From Asaia bogorensis (GTDB lineage: Bacteria; Pseudomonadota; Alphaproteobacteria; Acetobacterales; Acetobacteraceae), in NCBI GenBank assembly GCA_945868845.1, contig CAMBMS010000002.1:124001-188000 (forward strand): a stretch of 64,000 nucleotides of DNA, in the 5' to 3' direction. The translations under genes and the position numbers were made by a program. Under the pieces are notes generated by a model, which saw only the letters and a list, made by a program, of their open reading frames with translations, ran no database searches and had not been told where the DNA came from. Below, one piece after another: positions 8,152 through 15,280 of this stretch; positions within the stretch are counted from its first letter, which is position 1; each line of letters opens with the position of its first letter.

Positions 8152-8985
8152 TCACACACCGCGCGCGGCGGCCTGCCCGTCCAATACCGCCGCGCGCAGA
8201 GCCGCATGCAGATGCGGATTGGCCGCGACGATGGCCCGCGTCTCACGCGGATCGCCATCCCCCGCATCGGTTGCAAACCCTCCAGCCTCGCGAACGAGAA
8301 GCATTCCGGCGGCCATGTCCCACGGGTGCAGCCCGAGCTCCCAAAATCCGTCAAACCGCCCCGCCGCCACCCAGGCGAGGTCGAGCGCTGCCGCCCCGAA
8401 CCGGCGAATGCCCGCCGTCAGTGGCATCAGCGCACCCAAGGTGCGGGCAAATGCCAGCCGCCGCGCCGGCGCCACGGCGGCAAATGGAATGCCGGTGGCG
8501 AACACCGCCTCGGTCATTTCCCGCCGTCCCGAAACCCGCAGCCGGCGTTCATTTACGAACGCCCCGGCCCCCTTTTCCGCCCAGAACAACTCGTCCACGC
8601 ACGGCGCATAGATCAGCCCGGCCACGACCTCCGACCCGCCATCCGCCATCCGTTTTTCCAGCGCGATAGAGATGCACCAATGCGGAATCCCGTGCAGGAA
8701 ATTCGTCGTCCCATCCAGCGGATCCACCACCCAGCGCCAGGCCCAGTTCTCGGATCCGGAGGCGCCGGACTCCTCCATCAGGAACGCATAACCCGGACGG
8801 GCCTTTTCCAACTCCTGGCGCAAGGTCCGCTCTGCGCGCAGATCGGCTTGCGACACGAAATCGCCCGGTGCTTTAACGCTGGCCTGCAGCTGCTCGACCT
8901 CATTGAAATCATGCAGCAACCGCTTCGCCGCGCGCTGCGCCGCGTTCGCCATCACGGTCATATGAGGGGAAAGACGCAAGGCCAT
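8152..8985 (-). CDS. suhB: Inositol-monophosphatase family phosphatase
   Basis: This 277-residue Mg/Li-sensitive phosphatase family protein shows all the metal-binding motifs: the glutamate pair E71-E72 in FLMEESG, the DPLDGTTN loop (D88, D91, T93), and WDMAAGMLLVREAGG near residue 220. The family hydrolyses inositol monophosphate, fructose bisphosphate or histidinol phosphate, so the exact substrate is open. In many proteobacteria the SuhB member also helps rRNA antitermination. AGGAG lies 6 bases before the chosen ATG. The gene is downstream of efp on the same strand, with a long inverted-repeat element in the 126-base gap. Confidence 0.88.
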   Translation of the reverse strand: MALRLSPHMTVMANAAQRAAKRLLHDFNEVEQLQASVKAPGDFVSQADLRAERTLRQELEKARPGYAFLMEESGASGSENWAWRWVVDPLDGTTNFLHGIPHWCISIALEKRMADGGSEVVAGLIYAPCVDELFWAEKGAGAFVNERRLRVSGRREMTEAVFATGIPFAAVAPARRLAFARTLGALMPLTAGIRRFGAAALDLAWVAAGRFDGFWELGLHPWDMAAGMLLVREAGGFATDAGDGDPRETRAIVAANPHLHAALRAAVLDGQAAARGV

Positions 8986-9111: not shown

Positions 9112-9678
9112 TTATCCCTTCGCTCGCTCCACGTAGCTGGCATCCTCGGTCCGCACGACAATCCGCTCCCCGGCCTCGATGAAAGGCGGCACCATGGTCT
9201 TCACGCCATTAGCAAGTTTCGCCGGCTTGTAGGATGACGACGCCGTCTGCCCCTTCACCACCGGATCGGCCTCGACGATTTCCAGTGTCACCTGCGCGGG
9301 CAGGATGATGGCGACCGGATCGCCCTCCACCATGTCTACGGTGACTTTCATATTGTCTTGCAGGAATGCCACCGCATCGCCCAGCAGCGCCACCGGGACA
9401 TGCGCCTCCTCATAGGTCTCCTGGTCCATTAGCACGAGGTTGGTGCCGTCGGTGTAGGAATATGTATATTCCTTCTGCTCCGTCATCAGCCGCTCGACGG
9501 TATCGGCGGTGCGCCAGCGCTCATTCGTCTTGTTGCCGGTCTTCAGGTTGCGCATTTCCACCTGGATGAACGCGCCGCCCTTGCCGGGGGTGATGATTTG
9601 CTGCTTCAGTACGGTCCAGCGATTGCCATCATGCTCGATGACCTGGCCAGCGCGGATCAGGTTCGCCTGCTGCTTCAT
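9112..9678 (-). CDS. efp: Elongation factor P
   Basis: EF-P (188 residues) binds stalled ribosomes between the P and E sites and speeds formation of proline-proline bonds. The three domains are present: an N-terminal KOW-like domain with the tip loop TPGKGG (Lys33 at the usual modified position), then two OB folds ending in a SYVERAKG tail. Length and residues are standard. A lysine at the tip fits an EpmA/EpmB-type modification, but those genes are not in the window. A sigma-70-like promoter lies 40-70 bases upstream. It is the first gene of a possible efp-suhB unit. Confidence 0.97.
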   Translation of the reverse strand: MKQQANLIRAGQVIEHDGNRWTVLKQQIITPGKGGAFIQVEMRNLKTGNKTNERWRTADTVERLMTEQKEYTYSYTDGTNLVLMDQETYEEAHVPVALLGDAVAFLQDNMKVTVDMVEGDPVAIILPAQVTLEIVEADPVVKGQTASSSYKPAKLANGVKTMVPPFIEAGERIVVRTEDASYVERAKG

Positions 9679-11848: not shown

Positions 11849-13735
11849 CTAAAACCCGAACATATGGTCGAGCGAAAACCCTCCTACCGGATCCTCTAGT
11901 CCGTGATAGCCGAACAGCCGGCAGGTCATGTCGCGCACCAGCACGTAGCCATTCGGCCCGGCCCGGCGCAGCGCTACGGCGCCGAACAGCGCGTCCGGAT
12001 AGACAAGGGCGGAGCCTGAGCAGGCGATGGCGAGCGTTTCCTCCGCCACCACCGCGCCCGCGCCATCATGCAGCAACAGATGCGTGGACGATGTTGCGCG
12101 CCAGGGCGCGGAAGCCGGATAGATCAGCACCGTAAAACCGCGCCGCCGCGCATCGCCCAGCTTCAGGAACAGCCGGGTGGAAAGCCCTGGTGGTGGGCCG
12201 TTATAGGATTGCGGCTCGTCATGCCAGGTCATCGCGGTGTTGAAGATATGCGCGCCAAAGCTGGTTTCCGCTGCGTGGCCGGAATGCCGATCCTCGAACC
12301 GGACCAAAGCGTGCATCCAACCATCGGCGCTGCCGCCATCGCGGAAGTCGTAGACGAGCTCCGCGTGGCCGCGCCCGGTGCCGGGCAGGTCATCGAAGTC
12401 CAGTATTGTCGCGTGATCGCGTGGCAGGCAGCCTAGGAACTGCTCCGCGATTTTCGTGCCATCAGCAGCGAATACATCTACGCGCAGCGGCAGGCTGGCT
12501 TGCGATTCCGCCATCGGCGTCGGCTGTACGATGGTACGGAAACGCGTGCGGTCCAGTACGGGGAACGGCAGCAGGAAGCCGCGCCCCATCGCCGCCGGCA
12601 ATGCTTCGATGGCGGCATCTGGCTTCAGGTCTGAGCGTTCCACATTCACATGCGCGATGCGGGTGCGCCCTTTATGCAGCACCTCGTAACGTGGACGTAC
12701 CATGTGCCGACCGCAGCGGAGTTCGATCTGCGCCGGCCATTGCACACCCGGCAGCAGTTCCGCGACATCCAGCGTCACGGTGCCAAACCCCGGCACCGCA
12801 TGCGGATAGGCAACCGGTCGCCCCGCGCCCATCCGGTCCAGCGAGATGGTACCGGTTGGGATGGGCGATGCGTGGCTGTTCTGCACCCACAGCACCACGC
12901 GCTCATCCGCGCGCGGCGCCGGCAGGCCGGCATAGCGGTCGGATGGCCAGGCATTCGCGTCATGCGTGCAAGAAAGGCTTGTCCCGTTACCAGTGGCATA
13001 GGTGTCCAGCACGTATTTCACTACATCATGCCCGGCCACGCCGATCGCATGCAGCATCAACTGGCCGGTGAACTCCCCCAATCCGAAGCGCGCGCGTACC
13101 TCCTGGCTGTCGATCGCATAACCGCCGGCGCCTTGTGGCAATTCCTGCTCCCACTCCGCTATAACGCAGCCCGCGCCGTCGTACAAGCGCAGCCAGAGTC
13201 GCACCCGTGCCGCGCCATAATTCGCCCAGTAATTGGCCGAGACCAGTCGCGTGGACAGTCCGCCGCCATCGCGGAAGAAGACGCAGTTGGTGGCGAAGTT
13301 AAGTTTGTCCAAATAACGTGCCGGAGTGCTGAGCATGTTTTCCGGCAGCCGTGCCGCGTCTAGGCTCGCCAGCAGCGCGCCGGGTGGGAGCAGATGCGCA
13401 AGGCGGGCATAGATTTTCGCCGCGTCGAACGCCGCTACCAGCACCGCGCCGGCGCCGCTTTCCAGCAATTCCGTGACAGGCCGCGCTACCTGCCCGGCGC
13501 GGAGGCACCCCACCAGCGCTGCGTCATGTACGAACAAAGCCGCGATGGGCGGATACTTGGGATAGAGGGAGAATAGCGCCTCTGCGATGCCTTCTGGGTC
13601 GTACACCACAACTGGCCCCGCCGCCGCCAGCCGCGCGTAGAGGCAGACAATCTCTTCCGCCGCCAGCGGATGGGCAAGCGCCTTGTAGAGCACATTGCCG
13701 CCCTGGCGTTGGTCGAAGGTTTGGATATGCAGCAT
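11849..13735 (-). CDS. Large uncharacterised protein linked to an ELM1-family gene
   Basis: I do not recognise a named family in this 628-residue protein. There is no signal peptide and no membrane helix. The N-terminal 150 residues look alpha/beta with hydrophobic strands (GPVVVYDPEGIAEALFSL, AGAVLVAAFDAAKIYARL). The remainder is rich in short beta-strand patterns and paired WxxH/NxH-type turns, as in repeated beta-sandwich domains (VVLWVQNSHASPIPTGTISL; RRRGFTVLIYPASAPWR). The ATG at 13735 was chosen over 13789 because it starts 4 bases after the stop of the ELM1-like gene. That tight coupling suggests a shared function, perhaps with a nucleotide-sugar or glycan, but this is inference. Confidence 0.85.
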   Translation of the reverse strand: MLHIQTFDQRQGGNVLYKALAHPLAAEEIVCLYARLAAAGPVVVYDPEGIAEALFSLYPKYPPIAALFVHDAALVGCLRAGQVARPVTELLESGAGAVLVAAFDAAKIYARLAHLLPPGALLASLDAARLPENMLSTPARYLDKLNFATNCVFFRDGGGLSTRLVSANYWANYGAARVRLWLRLYDGAGCVIAEWEQELPQGAGGYAIDSQEVRARFGLGEFTGQLMLHAIGVAGHDVVKYVLDTYATGNGTSLSCTHDANAWPSDRYAGLPAPRADERVVLWVQNSHASPIPTGTISLDRMGAGRPVAYPHAVPGFGTVTLDVAELLPGVQWPAQIELRCGRHMVRPRYEVLHKGRTRIAHVNVERSDLKPDAAIEALPAAMGRGFLLPFPVLDRTRFRTIVQPTPMAESQASLPLRVDVFAADGTKIAEQFLGCLPRDHATILDFDDLPGTGRGHAELVYDFRDGGSADGWMHALVRFEDRHSGHAAETSFGAHIFNTAMTWHDEPQSYNGPPPGLSTRLFLKLGDARRRGFTVLIYPASAPWRATSSTHLLLHDGAGAVVAEETLAIACSGSALVYPDALFGAVALRRAGPNGYVLVRDMTCRLFGYHGLEDPVGGFSLDHMFGF

Positions 13736-13739
13736 CGTC

Positions 13740-14681
13740 TTAGTACCCCAATCGCCGGCGCATCTCCTCCCCGGCCTGCAGAGTGTCATTCATCGGGCTG
13801 ACCGGCCAGGGGTCATATCGCCCCGCGAAATCACGTACGCGGCCGCTGGTAAGCATATCATCAATGAAAAGGCCGATATGGCGTGAACGTCCGGGCAGGC
13901 GCGCAAGCATCACCGGCGCCGTGGTGGCCACGGCTTCGGAGACCATGGAAACGCTGTCCTGGGTTGCGATGATCATGTCCGCCAGCGCCAGCATGCCGAA
14001 ATAGGGGTTTTCGCCCAAGCCATCCCATACAAGAGCGCCAAGCGGGGCGAGCGTGTCGCGCAACACCGCTGTCGCCGCCGGATCCGTCCGGCGCGATGGG
14101 GTCAACGCCAGTCCGACGCGATCCGTTTGCATCATGCCGGCCAGTTTGTCCGCTAGCTCTGCCGCCACGGCGGCATCCAGCCGGAAGCGGCCGTTCGAGC
14201 CGCCGACCAGCACGCTCACTAGCGGGCGTGGTAGATGCGCGAGGCGCGCCGCCCATCGGGCCCGCGCCTCAGCCAGCCGCGCCTCGGTCACGCGATGCAG
14301 GGCGGTGCGCGTGACCAGCACGTTCGGGCCGGTCAGCCCATCATGGCGGTTCACCAACACTAGGCGGAACCGGCGCGGGTCCATATGCGGGTGCTGCACC
14401 GCCACCACATCCACGCCGCGCCGCGCCAGCGCCGCGCCCACCACCGTGCCGGCCCGCCCGCAGCCAATCACCAATCCGGGGTAAGGCGGATCGACGATGC
14501 CGGGTGCGACCGCCACAAGCGGCCAGGGCCACAGCTTCGCCGTCAGGTGTTTCCACGGCCAGCGCGCGGTCAGGATACGCAATTCGGGATCAAGCCCCAT
14601 CGCTTCCGCTAGCCCCAGCCCTTGCGCGCGCAAGCCGGCATAATCTTCCATCAGCAGCCAGGAAACGGGTGGGGCGGACAT
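13740..14681 (-). CDS. ELM1 family protein (mitochondrial-fission-ELM1-like, GT-B-type fold)
   Basis: This 313-residue protein matches the family named after plant ELM1, found widely in Alphaproteobacteria. Visible marks are MEDYAGLRAQGLGLAEAMGL near the N terminus, a glycine-rich GLVIGCGRAGTVVGAALARR (about 76-95), VSVLVGGSNGRFRLD mid-protein, and IIATQDSVSMVSEAVATTAPV near residue 245. The arrangement is like GT-B glycosyltransferases of nucleotide-sugar pathways, but no bacterial function is established. A longer upstream frame is an overlap with the DedA-like gene and was rejected: homology begins only at MSAPPVSWLL. It lies between a DedA-like membrane protein gene and the unknown 628-residue protein gene, all within a few bases of one another. 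Confidence 0.87.
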   Translation of the reverse strand: MSAPPVSWLLMEDYAGLRAQGLGLAEAMGLDPELRILTARWPWKHLTAKLWPWPLVAVAPGIVDPPYPGLVIGCGRAGTVVGAALARRGVDVVAVQHPHMDPRRFRLVLVNRHDGLTGPNVLVTRTALHRVTEARLAEARARWAARLAHLPRPLVSVLVGGSNGRFRLDAAVAAELADKLAGMMQTDRVGLALTPSRRTDPAATAVLRDTLAPLGALVWDGLGENPYFGMLALADMIIATQDSVSMVSEAVATTAPVMLARLPGRSRHIGLFIDDMLTSGRVRDFAGRYDPWPVSPMNDTLQAGEEMRRRLGY

Positions 14682-14698
14682 GGAAGATGCCGTTGCCG

Positions 14699-15280
14699 TC
14701 AATTTAAGTAACGCAGCACGACAAAGCCGCCGACCACGCCCACCACCACCGCCGTCGTCACTAGGGTCAGCCGCTTTTGGATGAAATCGCGGATCGGCGC
14801 GCCAAAGAAATGCAGCAGCACCGCCACTAGGAAAAACCGTCCGCCGCGTGTGGCGACCGACGCCAACATGAACGTCGTGAAATCGAACTGCGCCGCGCCC
14901 GACGCAATGGTAACGATCTTGTAAGGAATCGGTGTCAGTCCCTTGATCAGGATGATCCATAGTCCCCATTCCTGATACGAATGCTGGAAGGCGGCGAATT
15001 TCGTGCCGTAGCCGTAGGCGGCTAGGATCGGCTGCGCCAACTGGTCGAACAGTGCGAAGCCGATCAGCCAGCCAAACGCGCCGCCGATGACGGAGGCGAT
15101 GGTGCAGATCAGCGCCAGCCACCAGGCTTTGTCCGGCCGCACCAGGATCATCGGGATCAGCAGCACGTCGGGTGGGATGGGAAAGAAGCTGCTTTCTGCG
15201 AAAGACACCGCCGCCAGCCACCACATCGCATGCGGCGCCGCCGCCAAGGTCAAGGTGCGGGTGTAGAGCGATTGCAGCAT
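14699..15280 (-). CDS. DedA/YqaA-family membrane protein (VTT domain)
   Basis: The 193-residue integral membrane protein has the re-entrant-loop signature of VTT/DedA-type transporters: SFAESSFFPIPPDVLLIPMI (about 30-49) and the second half-site IILIKGLTPIPYKIVTIASG (about 108-127). Four or five hydrophobic segments follow the family pattern. Related proteins are thought to flip lipid carriers such as undecaprenyl phosphate or phospholipids, using ion gradients. The ATG at 15280 (MLQSLYTRTL) was preferred to 15337 as it matches the family start. It is the first of three tightly spaced minus-strand genes. Confidence 0.9.
   Translation of the reverse strand: MLQSLYTRTLTLAAAPHAMWWLAAVSFAESSFFPIPPDVLLIPMILVRPDKAWWLALICTIASVIGGAFGWLIGFALFDQLAQPILAAYGYGTKFAAFQHSYQEWGLWIILIKGLTPIPYKIVTIASGAAQFDFTTFMLASVATRGGRFFLVAVLLHFFGAPIRDFIQKRLTLVTTAVVVGVVGGFVVLRYLN

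Follow-up and report, generated by a model that had tools for sequence, protein, structure and literature searches.

The three minus-strand genes at positions 11,849 to 15,280 of a 64,000-nucleotide stretch of the Asaia bogorensis genome (contig CAMBMS010000002.1, positions 124,001 to 188,000; hereafter the window) raise the question whether they serve one common function and, if so, which. They encode a DedA/VTT membrane protein (DedA), a protein of the ELM1 family (ELM1) and a 628-residue protein that bears no family name (P628). An original prediction had described them as a set with one function, possibly the handling of a lipid-linked or nucleotide-linked sugar, and the coordinates confirm the tight spacing on which it was built: 17 bases separate DedA from ELM1 and 4 bases ELM1 from P628, all three frames being open. 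The conserved unit, however, is the ELM1-P628 pair, which reaches far beyond close relatives. We consider it fairly probable that ELM1 and P628 are both cytosolic and serve one step in the assembly of the lipopolysaccharide (LPS) inner core. The features of the locus are:

14699-15280, minus strand: gene of the DedA/VTT membrane protein (Pfam VTT_dom, E=8e-10)
13740-14681, minus strand, ATG at 14681: ELM1-family (PF06258) GT-B protein of 313 amino acids, predicted to be a KdoT-like transferase using CMP-Kdo (cytidine monophosphate-3-deoxy-D-manno-oct-2-ulosonic acid) (Pfam E=5e-88, AlphaFold2 (AF2) model, SRRT)
14085-14096, minus strand: SRRT motif, ELM1 residues 196-199 (invariant in 67 alignment rows)
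11849-13735, minus strand: P628, 628 amino acids, unnamed alphaproteobacterial family (homologs, AF2 model, no profile match)
13346-13699, minus strand: Rossmann-like alpha/beta domain, P628 residues 13-130 (AF2 secondary structure, VIA-align)
11852-13339, minus strand: serial beta-sandwich domains, P628 residues 133-628 (AF2 model, invariant columns)

Relationship of ELM1 to KdoT

ELM1 covered the complete PF06258 profile (Mito_fiss_Elm1, positions 1-304 of 304) with 295.5 bits at a curated cut-off of 27. Its AF2 model (pLDDT, predicted local distance difference test, 95) bore out the predicted GT-B-like fold: VIA-align superimposed it on the non-hydrolysing UDP-GlcNAc (uridine diphosphate N-acetylglucosamine) 2-epimerase 5enz with a Z of 19.2 (root-mean-square deviation (rmsd) 3.7, 281 aligned residues) and, over nearly the whole chain, on MurG (1nlm; Z 17.0, rmsd 4.4, 282 aligned). 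The Pfam family name is shared with the plant mitochondrial-fission protein ELM1, which takes part in the localisation of dynamin (as cited in PMC10936431); nothing in the present analysis bears on fission.

The original prediction had credited ELM1 with no bacterial function, a statement that no longer holds. The ELM1 protein A1S_2903 of Acinetobacter baumannii was linked to the inner core by genetics in 2024 (PMC10936431), and a 2025 paper showed it to be KdoT, which adds the third Kdo of the LPS inner core from CMP-Kdo (PMC12856342). According to the same paper the second arginine of its SRRT motif, R180, is the most important one and its loss cuts activity, and a homolog from Rickettsia re-establishes the core and, in part only, the membrane barrier (PMC12856342).

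ELM1 of the window has the family, the GT-B fold and the SRRT motif (S196, R197, R198, T199) in common with KdoT and, matched by motif only, also an H-D pair (H113-D114 here, H109-D110 in KdoT) and R198 as the counterpart of R180. The motif was invariant in an alignment of 67 rows. It was present in 59 of 60 ELM1 loci, that of the window included, and in six of six from outside the Alphaproteobacteria (hereafter the class), the sole exception (L144) reading SQRT; the 60 loci were the best-scoring ones, so that this count may overstate the conservation of the motif. In a set of 50 sequences taken from ELM1 neighbourhoods, 45 carried SRRT and one more SRRS. Three ELM1 frames without SRRT that adjoin P628 or the oxygenase described below (L225:7324-8304, L230:7970-8938, L184:6370-7374) were observed as well; two of them, from related genomes, carry GRRS at the motif and the third is without RR[ST], which may reflect a change of donor or mechanism.

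By family, fold and motif, a KdoT-type transferase is the most likely identity of ELM1, an assignment which we make with considerable confidence. Like WaaA/KdtA (PF04413) it would be an inner-core transferase that uses CMP-Kdo (as PMC12856342 states for KdoT and WaaA), although the activity of ELM1 is predicted and its Pfam family is a different one.

The genomic context points in the same direction. As with KdoT, ELM1 genes outside the class are accompanied by LPS genes, namely in L281 by waaA together with a gene for a lipid A acyltransferase, in L285 by waaA, in L284 by genes for an ABC exporter and a GT4 glycosyltransferase, and in L282 by an O-antigen-ligase-like gene. The LPS-like cluster with the ABC exporter and the GT4 glycosyltransferase (L284:6653-11371) contains two ELM1-like frames. 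ELM1 was encoded in 194 of the 240 genomes of an even class-wide sample and in 42 of the 249 genomes of a wider sample, 15 of these 42 lying outside the class. Within the class-wide sample it accompanied WaaA, being found in 174 of the 200 WaaA-bearing genomes versus 20 of the 40 others (p=9e-7). The source genome encodes LpxC (E=5e-102) and WaaA (E=1e-56, G000:C10), and thus the lipid A/Kdo pathway is present.

P628 and its association with ELM1

P628 had been declared unassignable, and it stayed so in our searches, which covered Pfam, NCBIfam, PADLOC and the PDB sequences. The single sequence gave nothing in Pfam at E<=1 and no match in NCBIfam or PADLOC, and the family as a whole (16 members) matched no curated profile or PDB sequence significantly, the best values being E=0.006 for Pfam and E=0.93 for a PDB profile. 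Literature on bacterial ELM1/DUF1022, A1S_2903 and KdoT yielded no account of P628, an unnamed family being unsearchable by name. P628 is a true gene and not a chance frame, because 15 aligned relatives (eight families including its own) are 43-70% identical to it and because its matches are free of internal stops, both in the first scan of relatives and, apart from a single TGA inside one match (G198), in the class-wide scan. In that genome (L241) P628 and the oxygenase are each in two pieces, with the TGA within a P628 piece, perhaps through decay or assembly errors. Plasmid-borne copies were not matched. Two further matches of 31% identity over about 71 residues (G022, G027) lie in frames which by eye look like GT-B glycosyltransferases, and were judged to be chance.

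The AF2 model of P628 is well folded (pLDDT 91, predicted template modelling score 0.90), and its hydropathy shows no transmembrane segment. With VIA-align the N-terminal domain matched the Rex repressor 5zz6 (Z 7.4, rmsd 3.4, 97 aligned) and 3nkl (Z 7.2, rmsd 3.7, 99 aligned), where a Z below 8 may mean merely a common arrangement. The remaining beta-sandwich part gave weak PDB matches (best Z 6.2, with the whole-protein model). Foldseek matches of the whole protein (PorU, A2ML1, complement C3, GH2 and others) had TM-scores of 0.07-0.14 among the rows listed and were not used, and hhalign found no internal repeats among five domain slices. An alignment of 16 sequences from the eight families contains 101 invariant columns, mostly in the beta-sandwich part, many of which are His, Asp, Asn, Trp or Arg, and the conserved clusters read GH...KY, HD.N.WP, VRPR, H.NV.R.DL, GW.H and, at the C-terminus, DHMFG. 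With a mean identity of 53% versus 42% over 25 loci, P628 is better conserved than ELM1.

Among named genomes, 339 stretches encoding a P628 relative were found, and the analysis continued with the best 80 of them. Most of these bear as title Acetobacteraceae, a genus of this family or Rhodospirillales, or just 'Proteobacteria' or 'bacterium'. One locus of 70% identity with both genes (L034) stems from a metagenome bin with the betaproteobacterial title Nitrosovibrio, which is probably mislabelled or contaminated. In 78 of these 80 loci P628 is directly preceded on its strand by ELM1, the alignment ends lying a median of 17 bases apart; the two exceptions are a locus that starts inside P628 (L106) and one that shows no ELM1 (L064). 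DedA, by comparison, adjoined ELM1 in none of the 67 loci whose sequence extends more than 800 bases beyond ELM1 on its upstream side. The conserved unit is therefore ELM1-P628 without DedA; of the proposed three-gene set the pair is conserved and the triplet is not.

The class-wide sample gave a similar picture. P628 was found in 49 of the 240 genomes, and in 39 of these ELM1 precedes it by no more than 3.1 kb on the same contig and strand, as counted by hand from match coordinates with intervening genes allowed and in some cases present. ELM1 occurred in 48 of the 49 P628 genomes versus 146 of the 191 others (p=2e-4); the corresponding numbers for WaaA were 47 of 49 and 153 of 191 (p=0.005). 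In a phylum-wide sample P628 was confined to four of 398 genomes, all of the class and the source genome among them, so that the pairing with P628 distinguishes ELM1 of the window from KdoT of A. baumannii. The fullest gene order (L184, L179, L177) comprises carA, carB, greA, an lrp in reverse orientation, ELM1, a gene of about 210 codons, P628, trxB and lysR, with the reversed lrp missing from L177; trxB, lysR and lrp were named by profile, whereas carA, carB, greA, the lptF/G order and neighbours without a profile call were named by eye. A pointer to LPS came from a P628 gene without adjacent ELM1 (G045, L182:7705-16168), before which lptF, lptG, lptD and a gene for a membrane protein (PF10131) lie on one strand, ending 240 bases before P628; ELM1 of this genome is on a different contig.

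The oxygenase linked to the pair

The gene of about 210 codons, which stands between ELM1 and P628 in many other alphaproteobacteria, encodes a 2-oxoglutarate (2OG)-Fe(II) oxygenase. This frequent third gene was invisible to the original prediction because the source genome has no match to it. Four members scanned with Pfam were assigned to PF13640/PF13661, PF13640 exceeding its cut-off in all four, and an HxD...H...R set (H105, D107, H164, R173) was invariant in 12 sequences; we take H105, D107 and H164 to be the iron ligands and R173 to be the 2OG-binding arginine. KdoO (PF11004) is likewise a 2OG-Fe(II) oxygenase and acts on the inner core. The linked oxygenase, however, shows no profile similarity to it, PF11004 being unmatched in the four scanned members and the hhalign probability being 0.8%, and its identification as KdoO was rejected. 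A defence role was dropped as well, since PADLOC matched none of the three window proteins; the oxygenase itself matches the generic '2OG' CRISPR-associated model of PADLOC (E=1.6e-10), which we take as superfamily likeness.

Strong oxygenase matches (E < 1e-40) occurred in 40 of the 240 class genomes, where 12 of the 52 matched genomes with weaker matches only were counted as lacking the gene. They are strongly associated with P628, being present in 33 of 49 P628 genomes versus 7 of 191 others (p=9e-22), and in 25 of the 33 co-occurring genomes the oxygenase lies within 1.4 kb of P628. In the remaining eight it stands beside ELM1 (G049, G182, G265) or elsewhere (G054, G080, G091, G095, G163). 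P628 and the oxygenase are paired while ELM1 is elsewhere or was not found in G046, G240 and G261, and ELM1 is accompanied by the oxygenase without P628 in G078. Where a lineage has the oxygenase, the enzyme probably modifies either the product or a partner. In two genomes without ELM1 and P628 (L220 and L223, from G039 and G274) the oxygenase lies near elongation factor P (EF-P), a radical S-adenosylmethionine (SAM) gene with a lysine-2,3-aminomutase C-terminal match, which is presumably EpmB, and a class II tRNA-synthetase-like gene, presumably EpmA; this may be a hint of EF-P hydroxylation or a coincidence.

Proposed role and competing explanations

The step which we propose would begin with ELM1 attaching a further Kdo to Kdo-lipid A by means of CMP-Kdo and the SRRT arginines, in addition to the general transferase WaaA, whose gene lies elsewhere in the genome; this reaction is shown for the family in A. 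baumannii and is expected for the window protein by analogy. P628, with its beta-sandwiches and Rossmann-like N-terminal domain, would then bind Kdo-lipid A or the sugar donor and modify the bound substrate or hand it on before export, as far as we infer its chemistry. In lineages with the oxygenase, to which the source genome does not belong, this enzyme might hydroxylate the new inner-core sugar or a partner protein, and DedA would have no conserved part. As ELM1 and P628 stay adjacent well outside the circle of close relatives, a shared role with CMP-Kdo and Kdo-lipid A is likely, and in this form the suggested handling of a lipid-linked or nucleotide-linked sugar applies to the two of them. 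For P628 a part in the same inner-core step as ELM1 is most likely, be it as enzyme, carrier or adaptor, and we hold this placement with moderate confidence. That it founds a new kind of cytosolic inner-core LPS enzyme, which acts on the Kdo added by KdoT, is a tentative and rather unlikely proposal.

Several results weigh against the proposed step. P628 is without a homolog of known function, and its role rests on gene neighbourhood. Four of the 50 neighbourhood-set ELM1 sequences, one of them a fragment, are without SRRT, and the H-D pair was dispensable in A. baumannii KdoT (PMC12856342). In 10 of the 49 P628 genomes (G045, G046, G049, G080, G163, G182, G186, G240, G261, G265) P628 was not seen beside ELM1; contig breaks may hide the adjacency in some of them, as P628 is at a contig end in G186, starts at one in G265, where the oxygenase after ELM1 runs off the end of another contig, and G261 is a 70% complete assembly without an ELM1 match. 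Orphan P628 regions of G049, G080, G182 and G265, read by eye, contain no LPS pointer, which is found only in G045. The oxygenase is missing from 16 of the 49 P628 genomes, occurs in 7 genomes without P628, three of which (G039, G175, G274) are without ELM1 too, and its co-occurrence with ELM1 is not significant (36 of 40 versus 158 of 200, p=0.13). Among solved structures its closest relatives are a putative hydroxylase (E=1e-15) and a protein resembling prolyl 4-hydroxylase, and a sub-threshold NCBIfam match leads to the peptide-maturing oxygenase YhhC. Finally, the usual flanks of the pair in other alphaproteobacteria (carA, carB, greA, lrp, trxB, lysR) are non-LPS genes.

Consequently, the adjacency may in part reflect frozen synteny, in which a conserved carAB-greA-ELM1-trxB region keeps P628 beside ELM1 while both do unrelated jobs. 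The same flanks exist with or without P628: ELM1 abuts trxB in 10 of 20 P628-free regions and likewise in G163, which has P628 3.7 kb away on the opposite strand, and P628 abuts trxB in 13 regions. Furthermore, the distance matrices of 13 loci, which likewise speak against the proposed step, correlate for P628 and CarB (r=0.70) as well as for P628 and ELM1 (r=0.67), so that a special co-evolution of the pair, not exceeding the CarB control, was discarded as an argument. Nevertheless, in eight of eight long Acetobacteraceae loci ELM1 and P628 are together although trxB, greA and carB are gone from their side, and with the pair kept in 78 of 80 loci and ELM1 in 48 of 49 P628 genomes we regard frozen synteny as unlikely to be the whole explanation.

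A second alternative makes P628 a glycan-tailoring enzyme, which together with the 2OG oxygenase produces a hydroxylated Kdo such as D-glycero-D-talo-oct-2-ulosonic acid (Ko) by a route apart from KdoO. The 101 invariant columns of P628, rich in His, Asp, Asn, Trp and Arg, its conservation above that of ELM1, the invariant HxD...H...R set of the oxygenase and the co-occurrence of the two would fit, and in some Acetobacteraceae Ko replaces Kdo (PMC8036547). Yet the source genome has no oxygenase match and there is no indication of Ko in its LPS, 16 of the 49 P628 genomes do without the oxygenase, and the latter is not recognisably KdoO-like. Its nearest relatives are named for peptide or protein substrates, which speaks for such a substrate over a sugar, and because of these relatives we rated both the Ko route and the founding of a new enzyme kind lower; the Ko route appears quite unlikely. 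That the oxygenase hydroxylates P628 or ELM1 itself, as a protein modification tuning the module, would suit its prolyl-hydroxylase-like relatives and its position between the two genes; with 16 P628 genomes, the source included, lacking the oxygenase and 7 having it without P628, we consider this very improbable. A single lipid-flipping system of DedA, ELM1 and P628 has the tight spacing in the source genome in its favour and is scarcely credible, as DedA adjoins ELM1 in none of the 67 loci and, in relatives with matches to both DedA and P628, lies on another contig or, in G023, G026 and G044, 640-880 kb off on the same one.

DedA was accordingly rejected as a conserved partner and looks like a local neighbour without a conserved part in the module. 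It shares the VTT domain with the undecaprenyl-phosphate transporter UptA, whose model it reached at E=0.12, and elsewhere it is unlinked to the pair. Upstream of the trio lies a divergent Asp/Glu-racemase-like gene and, 266 bases downstream of P628, an M20 peptidase gene, beyond which EF-P (9112-9678) and an inositol-monophosphatase-family gene (8152-8985) are encoded; EF-P had no match in loci L001-L110. A promoter scan found none, and four terminators were predicted versus 2.8 in shuffles; the trio may be co-transcribed in the source genome.

ELM1 proteins, present in 194 of the 240 sampled alphaproteobacteria, bear the name of a plant mitochondrial-fission family, and their activity has been known since late 2025, in Acinetobacter. 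P628 gives a handle on the role of KdoT in alphaproteobacteria and is itself a well-folded family within reach of direct test, and the inner core of the Acetobacteraceae, with Ko in place of Kdo in some members, is worth examining. If P628 were an enzyme of the tentatively proposed kind, accompanied in many lineages by an oxygenase unrelated to KdoO, the two would represent an undescribed alphaproteobacterial modification of the inner core.

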